From: a virus
Strand: one strand, 5' to 3'
DNA: 30,813 nt
Virus record (IMG/VR): IMGVR_UViG_3300029913_000081
Coordinates: 1 to 30,813 of that record
The position numbers and the translations under genes were made by a program. Below the pieces are notes generated by a model. It searched no databases. It was not told the origin of the DNA and saw only the letters and a list, made by a program, of their open reading frames with translations. Of this stretch, positions 8,233 through 29,787 are shown one piece after another. How positions within the stretch are numbered: position 1 is the first letter of the stretch; every line of letters starts with the position of its first letter.

Positions 8233-8266
8233 ACGGTATAATACACCCGCTTTCACCCCTCGTCAA
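8233..8266 (-). promoter_or_regulatory. Sigma70-type promoter of the capsid gene with palindromic operator
   Basis: On the minus strand TTGACG (8261-8266) is followed by exactly 17 bases and then TATTAT (8238-8243), a near-consensus promoter. The -10 box is the centre of the repeated palindrome CGGGT-GTATTAT-ACCGT (8233-8249). The -35 box overlaps the T-tail of the preceding terminator. Confidence 0.88.
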
Positions 8267-8333: not shown

Positions 8334-9497
8334 CTAACCAGCGGCCATTGCCGCCTCCATACCCACACCAAAGTCGAGGTTCTCGTCGCCCGCCACAATG
8401 GGGGCTCCAGCTCCGCCGCCGCCGGCACCCGGCGCGGAGGCGCGGAGCTTGGCCCGTTCAGCCACCAGACCTTCGTTCTCCGTTTGGAGAGCGCCGATCA
8501 CCTTCATGAGGTAGGGGAAGTGTGCGCCCGCGTATGCGGCGAAGGCTTTCTGCTGCGGGGCCAAGGTCTCGAAGTGGAGACCGCGGGCGATTTTCACCGC
8601 TTCCGTGATCGCCGCCTTGTGGTCGGGGTCGACGCCCTCGGCGTCCACGTTGAAGAAGTCGCTCTGCGTCTTGAGGTTGTTCCAGACGCCATCATAGGCC
8701 GCGGCCTGCTCCGCCTTGCTGCCCGTCTCGAAAGCGGCGATCTGCTCCGTGCGTTTCAGCTCGATCCGTTTCAGAGTCTCGGCAGCGTTGCCAATGATGA
8801 GGTCCTTCCGACCGTTGAGCATGAGCATGTCGTCGCCCATGCGGAAGAGGCGGCTTTGGTCGCGCGTCCCGAGCGTGGCCGCGAGCCCTTGGAGGAGCTC
8901 CGACTGTTTGTCGGCGTCCGTCTCCTGGAGAGCGGAGACGACATCTCGCTCCGGCAAGTTGTACCGCTTGGCCAAAGCTTTGGCGGCGTCGACGACCTGG
9001 CCGATCGGGACTGTGACGGCATCCTTATATTCCTTGGTCGCCTCGACGCGGGAGATGGAAAGCTCCGATTCCTGTTCGGTCGAGCGTTTCCGCAGGTTCG
9101 CGATCTCGTCCGGGTCGAAGCCTTTCAACTTCTCCTCGGCGGCAAGTGCGCGGGCCTCCGCGGCCTCCGCTCGCGTGGCGGCGGCTTTGGCGTTCTCGCG
9201 GATCTCTTTCCACTTGTTGCCTGCCTTCTCGTCGAGACCGGCCGGGGGCTCATCCGCATCGGCGGCCGGAGCCGTCTTCTTGGTCGCGGAGGGGAGCTTC
9301 GGGGTAGTCGCGGCGGCGGCGGCCGGAGTAACTACTTCGGGAACGACCGCTGCGACGGGTGGAGCGATTACTTCGGCCACCGGCACCGCGGGGTCAGGGG
9401 CGGCGGAGGAAAGGGGTGCGGCGGAGAGTGCGGCCTCGAGCGCGGCTCCAAAGGAGTCGGCTTCTGCTGGTGGGGTTACTTCTGCTGGTTTTGCCAT
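8334..9497 (-). CDS. Capsid scaffolding protein
   Basis: 387 aa. Residues 1-85 are low-complexity Ala/Pro/Val (disordered). Residues 95-165 are strongly helical (KWKEIRENAKAAATRAEAAEARALAAEEKLKG...). The rest is helical and charged, ending in a Gly/Ala-rich tail. This layout, with its position directly before the capsid gene, is typical of phage scaffolds, which template procapsid assembly and then leave. The start follows the previous stop as TAA-CCTACACCTACC-ATG, one of the clearest examples of the AC-rich initiation spacer. No protease motif is seen, so it is probably not a protease-scaffold fusion. Confidence 0.8.
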   Translation of the reverse strand: MAKPAEVTPPAEADSFGAALEAALSAAPLSSAAPDPAVPVAEVIAPPVAAVVPEVVTPAAAAATTPKLPSATKKTAPAADADEPPAGLDEKAGNKWKEIRENAKAAATRAEAAEARALAAEEKLKGFDPDEIANLRKRSTEQESELSISRVEATKEYKDAVTVPIGQVVDAAKALAKRYNLPERDVVSALQETDADKQSELLQGLAATLGTRDQSRLFRMGDDMLMLNGRKDLIIGNAAETLKRIELKRTEQIAAFETGSKAEQAAAYDGVWNNLKTQSDFFNVDAEGVDPDHKAAITEAVKIARGLHFETLAPQQKAFAAYAGAHFPYLMKVIGALQTENEGLVAERAKLRASAPGAGGGGAGAPIVAGDENLDFGVGMEAAMAAG

Positions 9498-9509: not shown

Positions 9510-9824
9510 TTACTTAACTGCGGGTTTCTGCTTGGGGTTTCGAATATGTTCCCAGGCCCCCGGCGTTGGTTTGGGGGTGTGGGGCTCGGCCTGTGGTTTT
9601 GCGAGGGCGAGAAGTTGGCGGTAGAAGTCACAGAAGCCTTCTCGGCGATCGTTGAGCAACGCCCGGCCGACCGCGTCGTTCGGAGCGAGATCCCCGGATT
9701 CCCCGGGGAGGTTATCAAAGATCAGAGCATCAAGGGCATCCTTGAGCGGGGAGGTGACGAGGAGCTTGGAGAGCTCCGTGCGTTTGGATTCGTCGTTGTA
9801 CCAATCGGTTTTGGTGTAGGACAT
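9510..9824 (-). CDS. Small protein of the head-gene operon, unknown function
   Basis: 104 aa, not recognised. It is mostly helical and charged (YNDESKRTELSKLLVTSPLKDALDALIFDNLP, then VGRALLNDRREGFCDFYRQLLALA), with a Pro-rich tail. The start is 4 bases after the acb2 stop and the stop 12 bases before the scaffold start, so it is co-transcribed with head genes. An assembly or defence-evasion role is possible given its neighbours, but nothing in the sequence decides between them. Confidence 0.6.
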   Translation of the reverse strand: MSYTKTDWYNDESKRTELSKLLVTSPLKDALDALIFDNLPGESGDLAPNDAVGRALLNDRREGFCDFYRQLLALAKPQAEPHTPKPTPGAWEHIRNPKQKPAVK

Positions 9825-9828
9825 CGGA

Positions 9829-10053
9829 TCAGTTCCGGGCGATGGCGGCGTTGGCCCAGAAGACCGAGGTTTCCAACTCCGTCAGAGCAACCGCGCGTTC
9901 ACGGCTCTTCGGGCAAAGCTCGTCGATCAGGTAGGCCAACTCTTTGGCCTTGTCGCGCAGGCGCGCGTACTTCTCCGGCTGTCCCGGTTTCGGGGCGTGG
10001 TAGGTGAAGTTCTTTTCGAGCTCAGGGTTTAGTGTAGGGTTTTCGGGTTGCAT
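9829..10053 (-). CDS. acb2: Acb2-family anti-CBASS cyclic-nucleotide sponge
   Basis: 74 aa. The core matches the Acb2/Tad1 hairpin domain: FTYHAPKPGQPEKY (residues 16-29), the helix LRDKAKELAYLIDELCPKSRE (32-52), and the hallmark end ALTELETSVFWANAAIARN (56-74). Family knowledge: Acb2 forms small oligomers that bind cyclic di- and tri-nucleotides made by CBASS (and related) defence systems, so effectors are not activated. It lies between portal and scaffold, with a 4-base gap on both sides, so it appears to be made with the late head genes rather than early. The length suits the family and no key region is missing. Ligand preference cannot be read from the sequence. Confidence 0.88.
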   Translation of the reverse strand: MQPENPTLNPELEKNFTYHAPKPGQPEKYARLRDKAKELAYLIDELCPKSRERAVALTELETSVFWANAAIARN

Positions 10054-12588: not shown

Positions 12589-12626
12589 CGGGTACAGTAC
12601 ACCGCAACAGCGGGATATGCAACCCA
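12589..12626 (-). promoter_or_regulatory. Promoter of the portal operon with two tandem palindromic operators
   Basis: Two copies of the repeated element lie 21 bp apart (two helical turns): 12610-12626 (minus strand TGGGT-TGCATAT-CCCGC) and 12589-12605 (GCGGT-GTACTGT-ACCCG). A -35 TTGCAT (12617-12622) and -10 TACTGT (12594-12599) are spaced by 17 bases. The upstream site touches the terminase stop codon. Confidence 0.72.
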
Positions 12627-14385: not shown

Positions 14386-14420
14386 ATGGTGTAATATACC
14401 GCATCCCGACACTTTGTCGG
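14386..14420 (-). promoter_or_regulatory. Terminase promoter with operator, near-leaderless
   Basis: On the minus strand CCGACA (14415-14420), a 16-base spacer and TATATT (14393-14398) form a moderate promoter. The -10 box lies in the palindrome GCGGT-ATATTAC-ACCAT (14386-14402). Transcription would begin almost at the terminase ATG (14384). Confidence 0.65.
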
Positions 14421-14523: not shown

Positions 14524-14593
14524 ATTCGGGGTCCCTTCAAATCCCCTGCCCTCCACGTATTTTGCACAACGCAAATTCCTTCTGTTGAGGCAC

Positions 14594-14627
14594 TTGACTA
14601 GGGTATGAAACGGGCATACTCTACCCG
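14594..14627 (+). promoter_or_regulatory. Integrase promoter with operator
   Basis: TTGACT (14594-14599), a 17-base spacer and TACTCT (14617-14622) form a sigma70-type promoter on the plus strand. The -10 lies inside CGGGC-ATACTCT-ACCCG (14611-14627), the same palindrome family found at the minus-strand promoters. The integrase ATG is about 70 bases downstream. Confidence 0.75.
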
Positions 14628-14697
14628 CATATACCGGCCCTGAAATGCCCCTAAAACAGGCTCTCAGACCCCGGGTTTGGTCCCAACCGTACCCAAC

Positions 14698-15972
14698 ATG
14701 AAAAACCCAACAAAAACAGAAATCACCGAGGAGAACGGAAAAATACTCGTCCGCCTCGGCACGTACCATGTCAACATTTACACGCTGCGGGAGGCAGGCA
14801 GGCCCGACCGGTTTCGGCTCAAGTGGTCGATCGGCGGAAAGACTCCCCAGACTCGGAACGTAAAAACCCGAGAAGAAGCACTCGAGCAGGCGGGAGAGAT
14901 CCTCGATTTCCGGTGCGCGGCGAGGGACGATCTGACCGAGGTGTCGACTAAAAAGCTGCGCTATTGGCAACTCTGCGAGGAGTCCTTGGGCGGGGTCCCT
15001 CTGGACGTCGCCTGCAAGTTCTACCTCGCCCAGTGCCCGACGGCGTTTGTCCCAGCCCCTGTCTCGGAGATCGTCGACGACGTGTTGGCTTCCCTCGGGG
15101 CGAAGAAAGGTGGTCGTGGGGCGTCGCCGGAGTGGGTCCGCACGGTGAAGCGCCGGGGGAAAGCTTTCGCCGAGTTCGCAGCCGGGCGGGCCTTCCACGA
15201 AATTACCACCGTAGACGTGGCTAAATTCTTGCGGAACCCGGAGTGGAATCTACGGACGCAATTCAACTACCAGGGGGTCGTGGCTCTCCTCTACGGCGCG
15301 GCCAAGAAAGCCAATGCCCTCCCCAAGACCGACTCTGCGTTCGACAAATTTGACAAGATCGAGAAACCGATGAGCGCGGAAAAGGACGTGTTGCCGCCGT
15401 CCAGCCTCGAGAAAGTGCTCCGCGCGGCGGTAGCCTCCGGGCGCACCCGGATCATCCCGTACCTGGCTGTCTGCGCCTTCGGGGGTGTGCGGGCAGCGGA
15501 GGCCAACCGGTTGGTGTGGGGCACCCACGTCGACATGGAAGAGAGGGTGGTGCGACTCACGACCGACATCACGAAGACGGGTTGCCGGCGAATCGTCCAG
15601 ATGAACGACGCCATGTTTGCGTGGCTCTCAAAATACCAAGGTGCGGACGGGACGCCGATCCAGACGTACGAAGACGCCGGACGGGTCGTCACGGTCCTGT
15701 GGAAAGAAGCAGGTCTGACGGAGTGGCCGCACAACGCCCTCCGCGTCTCCTTCATCTCCTACAGCATGGCCCTGACGGAGAACGCCGCCGCCGTGGCCAA
15801 CGGTGCAGGCCACTCAGAGCAGATGCTCCAGACGGTCTACAAACAAATCCGCGGGGTGAACAAGAAAACCGCAAAAGAATGGTTTGACATTCTCCCTGAC
15901 CTGCATGAGGAGTCGCTTATACCGCAGATAAACCCAACCACTACCACCATAAGCGATCCTTCGGTAACATAA
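14698..15972 (+). CDS. int: Tyrosine-recombinase integrase
   Basis: 424 aa from the ATG at 14698 (a TTG seven codons upstream is possible). Residues 120-225 form a core-binding-like domain (SEIVDDVLASLGA...WVRTVKRRGKAFAEFAAG...AKFLRN). The catalytic domain carries the expected set: Arg265 (GVRAAE), Lys293 (TKTG), His345 and Arg349 (HNALR), His372 (GAGH) and nucleophile Tyr381 (TVYKQI). The 'NALRVSFISYSMA...VANGAGHSEQ...YKQI...AKEWFDILP' end resembles integrases I associate with Verrucomicrobia. It would catalyse attP x attB recombination. It is the only large plus-strand gene and leads a three-gene operon ending in a terminator. Lysogeny is therefore likely. Confidence 0.93.
   Translation: MKNPTKTEITEENGKILVRLGTYHVNIYTLREAGRPDRFRLKWSIGGKTPQTRNVKTREEALEQAGEILDFRCAARDDLTEVSTKKLRYWQLCEESLGGVPLDVACKFYLAQCPTAFVPAPVSEIVDDVLASLGAKKGGRGASPEWVRTVKRRGKAFAEFAAGRAFHEITTVDVAKFLRNPEWNLRTQFNYQGVVALLYGAAKKANALPKTDSAFDKFDKIEKPMSAEKDVLPPSSLEKVLRAAVASGRTRIIPYLAVCAFGGVRAAEANRLVWGTHVDMEERVVRLTTDITKTGCRRIVQMNDAMFAWLSKYQGADGTPIQTYEDAGRVVTVLWKEAGLTEWPHNALRVSFISYSMALTENAAAVANGAGHSEQMLQTVYKQIRGVNKKTAKEWFDILPDLHEESLIPQINPTTTTISDPSVT
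15909..15925 (+). promoter_or_regulatory. Weak copy of the operator upstream of the ribbon-helix-helix gene
   Basis: GGAGT-CGCTTAT-ACCGC lies in the 3' end of the integrase gene, about 85 bases before the 88-aa regulator start. It shares GCTTATACCGC with the copy at 20696-20712. It could mediate autoregulation, but it is within coding sequence and no good promoter spacing is seen; a perfect TTGACA at 15884 is 25 bases from the possible -10. Confidence 0.3.
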
Positions 15973-16010
15973 ACCCCGACATCAACACCAAGAAAACCAA
16001 ACCCACCGCT

Positions 16011-16277
16011 ATGCCGAACTCCATGTCTCCTGATTCCCGCCGGGCTAACTTCATCGTGAGCAAAGACTTCTACGCCGGGCTCGAAGAGCTCGCGCAGAAG
16101 CAGCGAGTCACCGTGTCGGAGTTGATCCGCCGGGCTCTGGAGAAGGAGTACGACCAAGTTGAAGACGCCCACCCCGTCATCAACGTCCGACCAATTTCCA
16201 AAACCCAGAAAAAAGAAGCGGGTAAACCTGTCCCCGGACGCCCCCAAAAGGCGCGGAGACAAACCGCTGCGAAATGA
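16011..16277 (+). CDS. Ribbon-helix-helix (CopG-like) DNA-binding protein, candidate repressor
   Basis: 88 aa. Residues 11-48 fit the ribbon-helix-helix fold: a beta strand ANFIVS, helix KDFYAGLEELAQKQ, turn RVTV, and helix SELIRRALEKEYDQ. The rest is a basic, probably disordered tail (KTQKKEAGKPVPGRPQKARRQTAAK). Such proteins bind short palindromes as dimers or tetramers. It lies 38 bases after the integrase and is likely co-transcribed with it. The window holds at least nine copies of a short palindrome at promoters and no other clear DNA-binding regulator, so this is the best candidate for their binding protein; that link is inference. The upstream sequence is AC-rich (ACCAAACCCACCGCT). 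Confidence 0.75.
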   Translation: MPNSMSPDSRRANFIVSKDFYAGLEELAQKQRVTVSELIRRALEKEYDQVEDAHPVINVRPISKTQKKEAGKPVPGRPQKARRQTAAK

Positions 16278-16290
16278 TACCTTGCCACCG

Positions 16291-16485
16291 ATGAATACAC
16301 CCAGAGCCGACGAAGTGATGATCTCCCTAAACCTCCCAGAATCCCTTTGCCAACGGATTGAAGCGGCAGGAAAAGACCCAACCGAGGAGGCCCGAAAAGT
16401 GGCCGAATCCTTGGTCGGAAACTACCAGCAAGGCGACAAGAGGTCGATCAGATGGATGGCCGGCAAGAGTCTAAGGGCGGCGTAG
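16291..16485 (+). CDS. Small protein, possible second ribbon-helix-helix-like regulator
   Basis: 64 aa from the ATG at 16291, 13 bases after the previous gene. The frame is open upstream, but that part overlaps the 88-aa gene. The pattern EVMISLNLPESLCQRIEAAGKDPTEEARKVAESLVGNY (7-44) has a strand then two helices, as in ribbon-helix-helix or antitoxin-like proteins, but is weaker than its neighbour. The C-terminus is basic (GDKRSIRWMAGKSLRAA). It is followed by the plus-strand terminator and so closes the integrase operon. No toxin partner is visible. Confidence 0.6.
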   Translation: MNTPRADEVMISLNLPESLCQRIEAAGKDPTEEARKVAESLVGNYQQGDKRSIRWMAGKSLRAA

Positions 16486-16505: not shown

Positions 16506-16548
16506 CCCCGGGGTCCCCGTAAACCGGGGGCTCCGGGGTTTCCTTTTT
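16506..16548 (+). terminator. Intrinsic terminator of the integrase operon
   Basis: CCCCGG (16506-16511) pairs with CCGGGG (16533-16538), and inner CCCCG with CGGGG around TAAAC. The plus-strand tail is TTTCCTTTTTC. It separates the plus-strand operon from the convergent minus-strand genes ending at 16559. Confidence 0.8.
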
Positions 16549-17191: not shown

Positions 17192-17407
17192 TTACTGCTT
17201 GGTGGCCGGAAACTTCGGCTGGTTTTTGATGTTGGTGGCGAAGTGCGACCCGACGCTGTGGGCCGTCACCAAGGTGTGGTGGTCACTCGCGGAGACGTTG
17301 CCATAGTGGTAGACGCCTCCGGTTTTGAACTTCACGGCGAGCGTTTTGGTCGCCGGGTCGTGCCCGATCTCCGAGATCTGGGACGACTTTACGGAGTTCA
17401 TTTTCAT
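17192..17407 (-). CDS. KTSC-domain protein
   Basis: 71 aa from the ATG at 17407, which overlaps the upstream stop (ATGA). MNSVKSSQISEIGHDPATKTLAVKFKTGGVYHYGNV is the KTSC pattern: 'V-SS-I..IGYD..T.TL.V.F..G.VY.Y', then a helix and a 'SVGSHFATNIKN' end. KTSC domains (named after a Lys tRNA synthetase C-terminal fusion) are frequent in phages and plasmids with no proven phage role. The longer open frame upstream has an Arg-rich, non-homologous start and is rejected. Confidence 0.85.
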   Translation of the reverse strand: MKMNSVKSSQISEIGHDPATKTLAVKFKTGGVYHYGNVSASDHHTLVTAHSVGSHFATNIKNQPKFPATKQ

Positions 17408-17781
17408 GACCGCGCTCCCACTGCAAAAAGTTCGACCAAGTCTTCGCAGTCGAGGAACCTGTTCAATGCGACGTACTCGACATCTGGGTAGCACTTTTCG
17501 CACGGCTCGTTATAGACCACCAGAACACAATCTTCGGGTTCCAAACCCTCCCCTCGACACTCGATGTCCGGCCGAGGGATAAGGACTCCCTCCCACTGCG
17601 AGTTTCTGCGCACGTCAATCTTCTCCTCAAGGCAAAACTTTTCTTCGTCTTTATAGTACCACGAGACGACGGCCCCAATCGTCAGCGGGCACTTGATCTT
17701 TTCATAAGCGTCGAGGTCCCGGGGGAGTTCCGGGTTGTTGAGATCCGAAGACAGCTGTTGTAGTTGTGGGTGAGTAGCCAT
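17404..17781 (-). CDS. Protein of 125 aa, unknown function
   Basis: The start at 17781 was chosen because it follows the primase stop as TAA-CC-ATG; the longer open frame runs inside the primase gene. The protein is acidic with five Cys (including the pair ECRGEGLEPEDC and EPCEKC), aromatic strands (GAVVSWYYKDEEKFCLEE, VLVVYNEPC), and a final helix (LDCEDLVELFAVG). A metal-binding role is possible from CEKCYPD, but no family is recognised. Confidence 0.65.
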   Translation of the reverse strand: MATHPQLQQLSSDLNNPELPRDLDAYEKIKCPLTIGAVVSWYYKDEEKFCLEEKIDVRRNSQWEGVLIPRPDIECRGEGLEPEDCVLVVYNEPCEKCYPDVEYVALNRFLDCEDLVELFAVGARS

Positions 17782-20319: not shown

Positions 20320-20670
20320 TTACTTCGCTCCCTCCGCAGGGGGTGTCAGTGTCACCGGGAACAGCGGCGCTGTGGGCCAAGACATTGAGTAGGCGGCGAC
20401 TCCGGGGAGGCTCGGGTCGCAGAACATCACTGCACTGATCGTGGCCTCGGCCCCTGCTTCATCCAGCACCTTGGCACTGAACATCGGGAACGGGGTGTTC
20501 ATCCGCTGCCCCTGCAAGAGGATCCCAAGCAGGGAGCGGGAAACGCCCAGGATGATTTTTTCGAGCCCCGCATCTGCGCCGAGCTTGATGGCGTCGATGC
20601 AGACTTGGGTACATTGCTCCCGGTTTGTGGGTGTAGGGGGCGGGGTGGGGACAGTCGGAGAGGTTTCCAT
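20320..20670 (-). CDS. Protein of 116 aa, unknown function
   Basis: The N-terminus is Pro/Thr-rich (residues 2-16). It is followed by a helix with Cys (EQCTQVCIDAIKLGADAGLEKIILGVSRSLLGILLQ) and a Pro-rich C-terminal half. It is the first gene after the promoter-operator at 20696-20712 and is likely co-transcribed with the primase-helicase. Not recognised. Confidence 0.6.
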   Translation of the reverse strand: METSPTVPTPPPTPTNREQCTQVCIDAIKLGADAGLEKIILGVSRSLLGILLQGQRMNTPFPMFSAKVLDEAGAEATISAVMFCDPSLPGVAAYSMSWPTAPLFPVTLTPPAEGAK

Positions 20671-20695
20671 GGGTCGGCAAATGTCAGGTATGGTT

Positions 20696-20712
20696 GCGGT
20701 ATAAGCAACCCG
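20696..20712 (-). promoter_or_regulatory. Operator/promoter element upstream of the primase operon
   Basis: Minus strand CGGGT-TGCTTAT-ACCGC, touching the DNA polymerase stop codon (20713). GCTTAT would be the -10; no good -35 is seen at 17 bases, so activity may be weak or need another factor. Confidence 0.65.
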
Positions 20713-22611
20713 TTACTTCAAATAGTGGGTGGAAAACTGGGATTCACACCCCAAAGGCAACCCCTTCATGAAGCCCGGCGTGGCGGACATGATGCCCTCG
20801 ATTTTGAGCTTCATCGCCTCCTCTTCCTCCTGCGTCCCAGCGGGGACCTCGCAGATCACTTCGTCGTGGACCTGCATGACGACAGGGATTCCCGCCGCTT
20901 CGAGGCGGAGCATGATCGCCGCGAAGATTTCACGGGCCGTCGCTTGGACGATGTTTTCCGTGAGGACTCCGCCCCAGTAGCGCATACGGATCACTTTTTC
21001 CGCGCCGTGGACCTGCTTGACCACCTCCGCCGACAAGCCACCACCATCTTCCACCTCCACCTTGCGATACCGCAGGAGCCGGCCGGTCGGGAGCTGGATC
21101 AAGAAATCCTTCCCGATGTGGCACTTCATCGCCTTCTCCAACTTCTTCCACAGGTCCGTGGTGTGCGTCTCCGTCGTGCGGAAGTCGTTCACCATGGCTG
21201 TGCTCTCCTCGAGCGTGATGACGAGGTCCGCCATGATCTTGGCTACCAAGATGAACTTGTCCTTGCCGCAGCCGTAGCCGAGCCCGAGGACGGCCGCCTT
21301 CGCCCACTTGTAGAGCGATGGGTCTTCCTTCTTGAGCTTGCCTTTCTTCTCCGCCGGCCACTTCCCTTTGGCCACGGCGAACGCTTCGTAGACGCCGAAA
21401 CCTTCGCGGATCTTCTGCAAAAATCCCGTATTCCCCGCCAGCCATGCGAGTGTGCGAGGTTCGATCTGGGAGGAGTCAGCAATCGCGAACTTGCATCCCT
21501 CGCCGGCAATAGTGATGTGACGCAGGTCGACCCCGAACACCTCGTCGCGGTTCTGATTCTGCATGTTCAGACCGCCATCCCCGGACCACCGGCCCGTGAT
21601 GCACGCCCCAAAATACTTGAGGTAAAAAATCATCCGGCCGTTGGGCAATAGCCTGCTCTCCATCTTCTCCAGCTTCTTGAGTAGGATGTTAGACCGGCGG
21701 TGGTCCCGCATCGCGCCGACGACCGGGTAACTGTCCCCGTACTTTTCTTCCCAGGCTAGGCATTCCGGACTGTCTTTCGCGAGGGACGACGGAGCCTCGA
21801 TTCCCTGCTCTTTGCACCAGAGATTGAGCTGCTTCTTGGAAAGGATTCCTTTCTCGTTGTCTAAGTCTTCCGGTGCCCAGGGGATGATCTGTCGGGAGGT
21901 TTCCTTGACTGCACGGAGCTTGGCTAGTCCTTCGTGGAGAAGGGGGATGTCGAGCTTGACACCCCGTCGCCCCATGGTGCGGGTCAGGGTCGAGAGCTTC
22001 CGCTCGTGCGCCGGCCACAGCGGGGCCAGAGTGAGCCAAAGCTTGTCGCGGCAATAGACAGAATCGTCCATCGCGTACGCCAGCATGGTCGCTTTCTGCT
22101 CGTCACCGAGCATGTACCAATACTTCCCCTTCATGTCGTCTCGCGCCTGCTTCGAGATCTCCATGTTGAAGAACCACTTGAGGGCCAGCTTCGTGGCTCG
22201 CGGGGCTCCGAAGTAGGCGGCCATGTCGGCGGTGCAGAGCCATTCTTCGGGAAGCGCGTCCGCGGGGATGGCCTTGCTCTCAATGAGGGAGAGCTGCACC
22301 GCCTCGTCGAACCCCGCGTTGTGGGAGATCCAGCGTTTACCCTTGCCTCGGATCAGGTGCCACGGGGCTTCCTGCGGGTGGCCGACGAAGCTGACGCCCG
22401 GGCCGTAGATCGAGACGAGATACGCGTCGAACATCGGGTGCCGGCAATAGTGGTGGTTGCCGAGCAGTTTGACCGTGCATTCCTTGTCGTAATACGTCTC
22501 GAAGTCGACGGCGTAGGTGTTATCGAAATCGGGGTTACCGGTCACCGGGGGCGGAGCTGTCGTGGTGCCTTGCTGAAAAATGGCGGATGAAAGAGAGGTG
22601 TCGGAAATCAT
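20713..22611 (-). CDS. DNA polymerase, family A, with 3'-5' exonuclease
   Basis: 632 aa. The exonuclease domain keeps its acidic set: AVDFET (D36, E38), SHNAGFD (D102) and YAMDDSVYCRD (Y179, D183). Polymerase motif A is IADSSQIEPR (D379), motif B AKAAVLGLGYG (K438 onward) and motif C VMQVHDEV (D583). All catalytic residues look intact, so it should be an active replicative polymerase. Motif A has Ser where many have Tyr (D-Y-S-Q-I-E) and motif B has LGLGYG, as in several phage lineages. The start at 22611 is about 9 bases after the predicted transcription start, with leader CACCTACCT and no Shine-Dalgarno sequence. Confidence 0.93.
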   Translation of the reverse strand: MISDTSLSSAIFQQGTTTAPPPVTGNPDFDNTYAVDFETYYDKECTVKLLGNHHYCRHPMFDAYLVSIYGPGVSFVGHPQEAPWHLIRGKGKRWISHNAGFDEAVQLSLIESKAIPADALPEEWLCTADMAAYFGAPRATKLALKWFFNMEISKQARDDMKGKYWYMLGDEQKATMLAYAMDDSVYCRDKLWLTLAPLWPAHERKLSTLTRTMGRRGVKLDIPLLHEGLAKLRAVKETSRQIIPWAPEDLDNEKGILSKKQLNLWCKEQGIEAPSSLAKDSPECLAWEEKYGDSYPVVGAMRDHRRSNILLKKLEKMESRLLPNGRMIFYLKYFGACITGRWSGDGGLNMQNQNRDEVFGVDLRHITIAGEGCKFAIADSSQIEPRTLAWLAGNTGFLQKIREGFGVYEAFAVAKGKWPAEKKGKLKKEDPSLYKWAKAAVLGLGYGCGKDKFILVAKIMADLVITLEESTAMVNDFRTTETHTTDLWKKLEKAMKCHIGKDFLIQLPTGRLLRYRKVEVEDGGGLSAEVVKQVHGAEKVIRMRYWGGVLTENIVQATAREIFAAIMLRLEAAGIPVVMQVHDEVICEVPAGTQEEEEAMKLKIEGIMSATPGFMKGLPLGCESQFSTHYLK

Positions 22612-22621
22612 AGGTAGGTGA

Positions 22622-22638
22622 GCGGTGTATTAAACCCC
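22622..22638 (-). promoter_or_regulatory. DNA polymerase promoter with operator
   Basis: Minus strand GGGGT-TTAATAC-ACCGC; TAATAC is a good -10, but the -35 (TTCGAG, 18-base spacing) is weak. It overlaps the RNA ligase stop codon and continues into CTCACCTACC, which is shared with the copies at 29771 and 25758. Confidence 0.72.
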
Positions 22639-25407: not shown

Positions 25408-25692
25408 TTAAGAAACGGGAACGAGGTGGGGGTCTTCGACCGAAAGCTGATCCGCCGCATTGGCGACGTCTGCCATGATGTGGCCTTGCATTTCCGCCTG
25501 CTTGGCGATCATGCGTTGGGCCGCAGTCTGCACCATCTTCTCGAGGGCGGAGTCGGGCAGGCGACAGAGGGCGTTCGGGATCGGATACCCTGGGGGTAGA
25601 CCGAGGAGTACGCGAGTCTGGGGTTTCGTGCGCCAGTGGCCGCGGGAGACTTTGAAGGAGCGGGGTTTTTGAGCGGATTTTTGGGAGTGCAT
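25408..25692 (-). CDS. Protein of 94 aa, unknown function
   Basis: The N-terminus is basic (HSQKSAQKPRSFKVSRGHWRTKPQTRVLL), the middle reads PPGYPIPNALCRLPDSALEKMVQTAAQRM, and a helix follows (IAKQAEMQGHIMADVANAADQLS). It is the first gene after the promoter at 25758-25790. Its basic start could contact nucleic acid. Not recognised. Confidence 0.6.
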   Translation of the reverse strand: MHSQKSAQKPRSFKVSRGHWRTKPQTRVLLGLPPGYPIPNALCRLPDSALEKMVQTAAQRMIAKQAEMQGHIMADVANAADQLSVEDPHLVPVS

Positions 25693-25719: not shown

Positions 25720-25750
25720 CCGCCGGGCGGGGTCGGACCGCGAGCGGCGG
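25720..25750 (-). other. Hairpin in the leader of the 94-aa gene transcript
   Basis: CCGCCG (25720-25725 on plus) pairs with CGGCGG (25745-25750), with an inner GCGG/CCGC stem. On the minus strand it is followed by CCAATTTTCCC. It could be an attenuator or a 5' stabilising hairpin, about 10 bases after the expected transcription start. Confidence 0.5.
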
Positions 25751-25757
25751 TAGGTGT

Positions 25758-25790
25758 GCGGTATATTAAACCGGTCGCGAAGTGCGTCAA
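25758..25790 (-). promoter_or_regulatory. Strong sigma70-type promoter with operator
   Basis: Minus strand TTGACG (25785-25790), 16-base spacer, TAATAT (25763-25768). The -10 is inside CCGGT-TTAATAT-ACCGC (25758-25774). It is just past the ribonucleotide reductase stop and drives the genes leftward to the RNA ligase. Confidence 0.88.
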
Positions 25791-28870: not shown

Positions 28871-29707
28871 TTACTGCTTCGACGCGAAGAACGCGCGCTC
28901 TTCGGGGGTCGTCCGGCGGCCGGCTTTCAGCTTCGGAGTCCACCAGGAGAACTTCTCCGTCGACATGAACTTGCTCCAGAGGAGGAAGGTCGTGTTGATC
29001 GTGGGCTGCCGGGTGTTGTTGACGAACGTGAAGATTTCCTTCGCCACGTTCGTGTAGGCGATGGACTTCACGAAGAAGAGCGCCTTGGCATAGCGTTTCC
29101 CCTCCGCCGTCTCGTGGAGGAAATAGTCGAGATCGTTCTCGTCACAGCCGACCGGGGCCGGAACGGAGATCAGGATTTGGGCCGTCTCCTCGAAGAGCGG
29201 GCGCGTCTTGTCGTTGCGCTCGATCGTTCCTCCGAGGGCGCGGACTTCCGCGGCCGTGTCACAGCGGACCGTCTCTTCGTCAGAGCCGTACTCCGTCTTC
29301 TTCTGGTAGCTCTTCTTGAGACCGAGGACGACGACCTCGATCTGCGGCGTCTCCTTGTAGCCGCGGGCGGGTTTCCCGTCAGGGCCGTTCGGCACCGGAT
29401 TGAGCACAATGGTGTCCGAGAAGACGAGCGCCCCCAGCGGCAGCTCGCCTTCCGTGCGGGTCTTACTCAACGAGTTGACCAGGGTCAGCTTCGGGATGTG
29501 GATGTCGCGCCGGTCGACCTCCCCTTCGATGCCGGTGCCTTCGAGGCTCAGGCCGCCGTGCTGGGTGGCGGGGGAACTGGAGCCCGGGGAATGGGTGATC
29601 GCGGAGGACGTCGCGGAAGATGTGCCCGCGACGGGGCTGTAGCCTTCGCCGGGCGTCGCGGTTTCGTCAGTGGTAGCTTCGATGTCGGTGAATGATTGGT
29701 TTCCCAT
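28871..29707 (-). CDS. Possible single-stranded DNA-binding or replication accessory protein
   Basis: 278 aa. Residues 1-60 are Ser/Thr/Gly-rich and likely disordered. The core begins IHIPKLTLVNSLSKTRTEGELPLGALVF, which recalls the 'IP.L.L.Q.LS....G...G' opening of a widespread phage replication-region protein thought to bind ssDNA; then come strands (IEVVVLGLKKSYQKKTEYG), a variable 'RCDTAAEVRALGGT' and a C-terminal alpha/beta half. It sits between the DUF2800-like nuclease and dNMP kinase, where a recombination or ssDNA-binding partner is expected. The assignment rests on context and weak motif similarity. Confidence 0.45.
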   Translation of the reverse strand: MGNQSFTDIEATTDETATPGEGYSPVAGTSSATSSAITHSPGSSSPATQHGGLSLEGTGIEGEVDRRDIHIPKLTLVNSLSKTRTEGELPLGALVFSDTIVLNPVPNGPDGKPARGYKETPQIEVVVLGLKKSYQKKTEYGSDEETVRCDTAAEVRALGGTIERNDKTRPLFEETAQILISVPAPVGCDENDLDYFLHETAEGKRYAKALFFVKSIAYTNVAKEIFTFVNNTRQPTINTTFLLWSKFMSTEKFSWWTPKLKAGRRTTPEERAFFASKQ

Positions 29708-29770
29708 ATTAGTTATGTGCGTGTGTTGGTTTTGTGTTTATCTGAGAGCTGCGAAAGTTAGGGTAGGTGA
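29708..29770 (-). promoter_or_regulatory. 5' leader of the 278-aa gene
   Basis: About 60 bases from the operator to the ATG: CTCACCTACCC, then A/C-rich sequence ending ACACACGCACATAACTAAT before ATG. No Shine-Dalgarno sequence and no further gene is seen. Confidence 0.5.
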
Positions 29771-29787
29771 GCGGTATATGCAACCCG
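29771..29787 (-). promoter_or_regulatory. Operator/promoter element upstream of the 278-aa gene
   Basis: Minus strand CGGGT-TGCATAT-ACCGC, identical to the copy at 20696 except for one base in the spacer. It abuts the nuclease stop codon. GCATAT is the likely -10; no good -35 is visible. Confidence 0.65.

Follow-up and report, generated by a model that had tools for sequence, protein, structure and literature searches.

The usual account of lysogeny in bacteriophages invokes helix-turn-helix repressors, and in lambda the repressor is CI. CopG of plasmid pMV158 is a small ribbon-helix-helix (RHH) repressor that binds a short palindrome overlying the promoter of its own gene, and phage P22 has two RHH repressors, Arc and Mnt, in its secondary immunity region, the main repressor of this phage being C2. 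F55 of the archaeal virus SSV1, also an RHH protein, keeps lysogeny by binding within or next to a number of early promoters and at the promoter of its own gene (PMC5569661). The immunity repressor of L5/TipsytheTRex has many 13-bp stoperator sites genome-wide, oriented with transcription (PMC9283540). Among the open papers searched, F55, from an archaeal virus, was the only RHH protein with a documented role in keeping lysogeny; no bacterial phage with an RHH main immunity repressor was found in the open-access literature, which is weak evidence of absence.

The stretch of DNA analyzed here, referred to as the window, is the linear IMG/VR record IMGVR_UViG_3300029913_000081 (30,813 bases). 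It encodes an 88-amino acid RHH protein beside an integrase. We consider it reasonably probable that this protein is an autoregulated, operator-binding repressor of lytic promoters, which is made from the integrase operon and would have a lysogeny role like that of CI.

Integrase operon and RHH protein

Nearly all genes of the window lie on the leftward strand, including those for terminase, portal, capsid, tail, DNA polymerase A, primase, and nucleotide metabolism. The exception is a rightward three-gene operon for a tyrosine integrase, the RHH protein, and a 64-amino acid protein (Table 1). A reading of the sequence alone had placed an RHH protein next to the integrase and had it expressed with that gene. 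The RHH identity and the link to the integrase were borne out: the two genes are co-directional and separated by 38 bp, with the RHH gene second, in a putative operon ended by a terminator.

Table 1. Positions of the integrase operon and of the putative operators in the window.
Feature	Position	Strand	Site sequence	Remarks
Tyrosine integrase	14677–15972	+		PHROG integrase 5.8e-11; ATG at 14698 likelier start than TTG at 14677
RHH protein, proposed operator-binding repressor	16011–16277	+		88 aa; ATG start; Pfam RHH_1, PHROG, orthologues after integrase
64-aa protein, RHH-like two-helix shape	16291–16485	+		Third gene of module; positional equivalents, model
Terminator hairpin	16506–16538	+		Strong, 14-pair stem; ends the operon after the 64-aa ORF
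Putative operator	8235–8247		GGTATAATACACC	Upstream of capsid gene; over -10 of minus-strand TTGACG-17-TATTAT
Weak putative operator	12591–12603		GGTACAGTACACC	Near portal gene start
Weak putative operator	12612–12624		GGGATATGCAACC	terL–portal junction; L002 and L003 also have a copy at this junction
Putative operator	14388–14400		GGTGTAATATACC	3 bp before terminase large subunit ATG (minus-strand gene); promoter-like CCGACA-16-TATATT, minus strand
Weak operator-like site	14613–14625		GGCATACTCTACC	Upstream of integrase; TTGACT hexamer upstream at promoter spacing
Weak putative operator	15911–15923			Inside integrase 3' end; score 6.8
Putative operator	15963–15975		GGTAACATAAACC	35 bp before RHH start codon; score 12.8
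Putative operator	20698–20710		GGTATAAGCAACC	Upstream of ORF 20320–20670
Putative operator	22624–22636		GGTGTATTAAACC	12 bp before DNA polymerase A gene
Putative operator	25760–25772		GGTATATTAAACC	Upstream of ORF 25408–25692; over -10 of minus-strand TTGACG-16-TAATAT
Putative operator	29773–29785		GGTATATGCAACC	Upstream of ORF 28871–29707

The 88-amino acid protein passes the curated cut-off of Pfam RHH_1 (4.9e-7) and so has a recognized domain of the RHH (CopG/MetJ/Arc) superfamily; it also matches PHROG families annotated as transcriptional or CopG-like repressors (7e-6 and 3.3e-5). The nearest solved structure by sequence, reached from the RHH family profile, is CopG (E 0.0056). The match to an Arc-like PHROG family is weak (0.0063), and the Pfam Arc family gave no match at E 0.1 or better. 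The monomer model has two helices (residues 18–30 and 35–53, pLDDT ~90); the strand, which belongs to the dimer only, is absent from it. Top Foldseek matches of this model were RHH domains, all with E above 0.1.

Catalytic-type residues of the integrase (R272, K300, H353/R356, and Y388) were seen in its alignment. A comparison of the integrase with deposited phages gave matches only to two that infect Akkermansia (26–28% identity), which suggests that the host may belong to the Verrucomicrobiota. A GTDB scan with the terminase alignment returned two distant MAG matches only, so no prophage and no host were identified by this route.

Between terL and the integrase gene lies a sequence resembling a tRNA/tmRNA 3' end (~14527–14560), a candidate attachment site. 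Similar sequences occur in the related records L125 (~9460–9495) and L007 (~9760–9800). Neither ARAGORN nor Rfam called a convincing tRNA or tmRNA there. A KTSC-domain protein (17192–17503, minus strand; Pfam 2e-18) adjoins the operon. Further off, between the scaffold and portal genes, a 74-amino acid protein (9829–10053, minus strand) carries an Acb2/Tad1 hairpin domain (Pfam PF24729, 2.2e-22) and is likely a sponge against CBASS/Thoeris-type defence.

Palindromic sites in the window

A family of 13-bp palindromes with an AT-rich core, GGTNNNNNNNACC, recurs at promoter positions of the window. Seven copies have the form GGT-N7-ACC with at least five A/T in the core (at 8235, 14388, 15963, 20698, 22624, 25760, and 29773), compared with 0.16 expected from shuffled intergenic sequence, and all seven are intergenic or overlap a gene end. 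De novo k-mer counts over whole loci were swamped by codon bias, and counting was done in intergenic DNA instead; when 13-mers in the non-coding DNA of the window were searched without supervision, the GGT-N7-ACC family came out as the top motif. With the weaker copies at 12591, 12612, 14613, and 15911 the total comes to ten or eleven, so that the nine operators counted in the sequence-only reading were about right. That reading had also proposed autoregulation from a copy at 15909–15925. A candidate operator upstream of the RHH gene was indeed found, but the better-scoring site is the one at 15963–15975 and not the weak copy first named. Both were recovered by an independent matrix trained on sites of L002 and L003 only, the top eight matches of which in the window were 15963 (the best match), 29773, 12612, 20698, 25760, 14388, 8235, and 15911 (rank 8).

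Four early-gene sites have in common an oriented 24-bp element, GGTAGGTGAGCGGTATATTAAACC-like (20687–20713, 22613–22637, 25749–25773, and 29762–29786), with extra GGT half-sites (GGTAGGTGAGC ahead of the palindrome). These half-sites might provide room for further dimers. The structural-gene sites at 14388 and 8235 share a CCGACA-type flank instead of this extension.

The palindromes overlap sigma-70-like -10 boxes, and at 8235 the -10 box lies inside the palindrome. TTGACA-like hexamers (at least 5/6) occur at promoter spacing at 8 of 27 sites in the window and its relatives, a list that includes weak and relative-specific sites and was picked by sequence, not by promoter context. Random nearby positions gave a mean of 1.0, and a count of 8 was not attained in any of 1000 control sets. 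A recognizable -35 box is missing at several sites. By position, sites lie over putative lytic promoters serving replication, packaging, and capsid genes, as a CI-like role would entail.

The integrase-RHH module in relatives

Relatives were drawn from IMG/VR by terminase (19 loci), polymerase (80), and integrase-alignment (eight) searches; single-sequence searches of viral contigs with the RHH protein or the integrase returned no relatives. An integrase gene is followed by an RHH gene in L002, L003 (also present as L004 and L013), L007, L125, and L126, and this order is kept in three lineages. In L002, L003, and L007 a small RHH-like protein comes next, with an exonuclease/helicase block on one side of the module and terL on the other, and most module carriers have such a further protein. 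The linkage appears to be old, because identity to the window proteins is only ~25–34% for the integrases and 25–47% for the RHH proteins. Residues M1, N3, R11, Y21, E25, A28, S36, L38, R40, A42, and R60 of the RHH protein are invariant in all six sequences (window and relatives). Most other relatives (e.g., L009, L021, L023, L027, and L094) have no detectable integrase or RHH protein.

Relative to L007, L125, and L127, the early block is inverted in the window, so that the integrase operon stands by itself on its strand; in those three records the genes at the integrase-RHH position are co-oriented with the early genes and point away from terL. Related small proteins are encoded near the integrase in L007 (7379–7714, minus strand), L125 (11565–11912, plus strand), and L127 (11022–11417, plus strand). 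These are candidate excisionases, two of which (those of L125 and L127) are weakly similar to HTH_17. No counterpart was recognized in the window.

Presence of the palindrome family is tied to presence of the integrase-RHH module across the relatives. A matrix trained on the window found 18 sites in the five module carriers, compared with 4.9 expected, and 31 sites in 54 relatives without the module, compared with 37.0 expected. L127, the single natural control and a 17-kb contig, has an integrase without an RHH protein; it shows no site cluster, and its best matches are at background level. In the terL tree L127 nests among the module carriers, a placement to be read with caution for long branches. 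The carriers themselves are clustered in this tree, which makes ancestry a partial confounder of the association.

Sites in L007, L125, and L126 are of a variant form, GGTRTAATATCC, in which one of the two arms is displaced by 1 bp. This variant was first spotted by eye, and a de novo search of L007 also returned it among its top motifs; in L125 the window matrix found no sites, and this variant is the only form present. A matrix made from the L007 sites was dropped as evidence of association, since it is mostly a -10 box and therefore non-specific, with mild enrichment in the negatives too.

The DNA-facing positions of the CopG strand, which we take to be 4, 6, and 8, align with R-N-I in the window protein, R-T-C in L002/L003, and R-V-I in L007/L125/L126. 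The site variants split into the same three groups, being GGTWTAATATACC-like in the window, GGTATATGNTACC in L002/L003, and GGTRTAATATCCA in L007/L125/L126. This is suggestive of co-variation between β-strand residues and palindrome variants in three lineages.

Proposed role and alternatives

The case for the 88-amino acid RHH protein as the likely binder of the palindromes is supported but indirect. We infer that this protein represses the palindrome-bearing promoters and that it may maintain lysogeny. A CopG-type repressor would be expressed from the integrase operon, and its dimers, or pairs of dimers, would insert the N-terminal β-ribbon into the 13-bp GGT-(7 AT-rich)-ACC site. The palindrome would cover the -10 box of host sigma-70-type promoters ahead of the groups of genes for replication, packaging, and structural proteins, and because of this overlap the bound protein would exclude host RNA polymerase. 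Its level would be capped by its own upstream sites at 15963 and 15911, and perhaps also by the one at 14613 ahead of the integrase gene. In the lysogen, lytic genes would thus be held off by the RHH protein in the role that CI has in lambda.

Two repressor families were sought genome-wide, HTH_3 and Peptidase_S24, and neither gave a match in the window or in related records, which are partial records; both searches had responding controls. This agrees with the earlier remark that no CI-like helix-turn-helix repressor is seen, although the window is a 30.8-kb linear fragment and another repressor could lie outside it. A broader proposal is that throughout this integrase-bearing tailed-phage lineage the RHH protein is the only immunity repressor, acting at about ten spread operators, with co-evolution of β-ribbon and operator setting the immunity groups. 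We put this forward tentatively, doubting it somewhat more than we believe it.

It is also possible, though unlikely, that the RHH protein times lytic infection by damping early promoters in the manner of Cro, Arc, or CopG, with lysogeny kept by another factor. Such a role would suit sites that cover replication and structural promoters alike, and the co-orientation of the integrase-RHH genes with early genes in L007 and L125. However, none of the module carriers yielded a CI/LexA-type repressor in the HTH_3 and Peptidase_S24 searches, and relatives without an integrase are also without the RHH protein, as a lysogeny function predicts.

In several lineages the third gene of the operon accompanies the RHH gene, and its product looks RHH-like, so the binder could instead be the 64-amino acid protein, or both proteins as a pair (repressor and anti-repressor, or heterodimer). 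Its model has an extended N-terminal stretch followed by an RHH-like pair of helices (mean pLDDT 65.5), and its positional equivalents in L002 (above the cut-off) and L007 (below it) match RHH families. The window copy has no Pfam match, however, and the protein is poorly conserved (19–21% identity, two invariant columns), whereas the 88-amino acid RHH protein keeps M1, N3, R11, Y21, S36, R40, and R60 in all lineages; we regard this alternative as improbable.

We give slightly less credence still to the view that there is no dedicated repressor and that the palindromes are phage-specific promoter elements for the RNA polymerase of the host or of the phage. The -10 boxes inside palindromes with TTGACN upstream, and the longer oriented element at the four early sites, would be in keeping with this. 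What argues against it is the symmetry of the GGT/ACC arms and the lack of enrichment in relatives without the module, which need promoters too; in addition, no T7-like polymerase was found, in a search that had no responding control.

A function of the RHH protein as an excisionase or accessory recombination factor would accord with its position beside the integrase and with the match of its L002 and L003 relatives to the relaxosome protein NikA family, besides RHH_1. We judge it very unlikely, as the sites span ~21 kb at promoters and are not clustered near the putative attachment site, and as L007, L125, and L127 have a separate small protein better suited to the task. That the RHH protein serves as antitoxin in a type II toxin-antitoxin system is scarcely credible despite a weak RelB-like antitoxin similarity, since no toxin family matched the adjacent gene (16291–16485), leaving no adjacent cognate toxin, and the neighbors in relatives are RHH-like.

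If the RHH protein does act as the repressor of lysogeny, there would be bacterial phages in which an RHH protein replaces CI, and temperate phages would be missed or mis-annotated by repressor searches. The matched protein and operator variants would then lend themselves readily to testing how the specificity of immunity evolves.

Comparison with known systems

Arc and Mnt of P22, the comparison offered by the sequence-only reading, are like the 88-amino acid protein in being phage RHH proteins. The Pfam Arc match is lacking here, and other proteins are closer, namely CopG in sequence and F55 of SSV1 in role. CopG serves plasmid copy-number control at one promoter, whereas about ten sites are spread across the phage genome here. 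In this respect the proposed system resembles L5/TipsytheTRex, where one repressor serves many 13-bp sites across a phage genome; that repressor, however, is a monomer with two HTH-type domains and asymmetric sites, unlike the RHH protein and palindrome described here. By analogy, F55 is the nearest functional precedent for the lysogeny role proposed. Both are viral RHH proteins, and the proposed sites lie likewise at several promoters and at the protein's own gene. The archaeal F55 binds tandem repeats (ATAGATAG), whereas the sites here are 13-bp palindromes on bacterial -10 boxes, occur also ahead of structural genes, and would be served by an RHH gene within the integrase operon.
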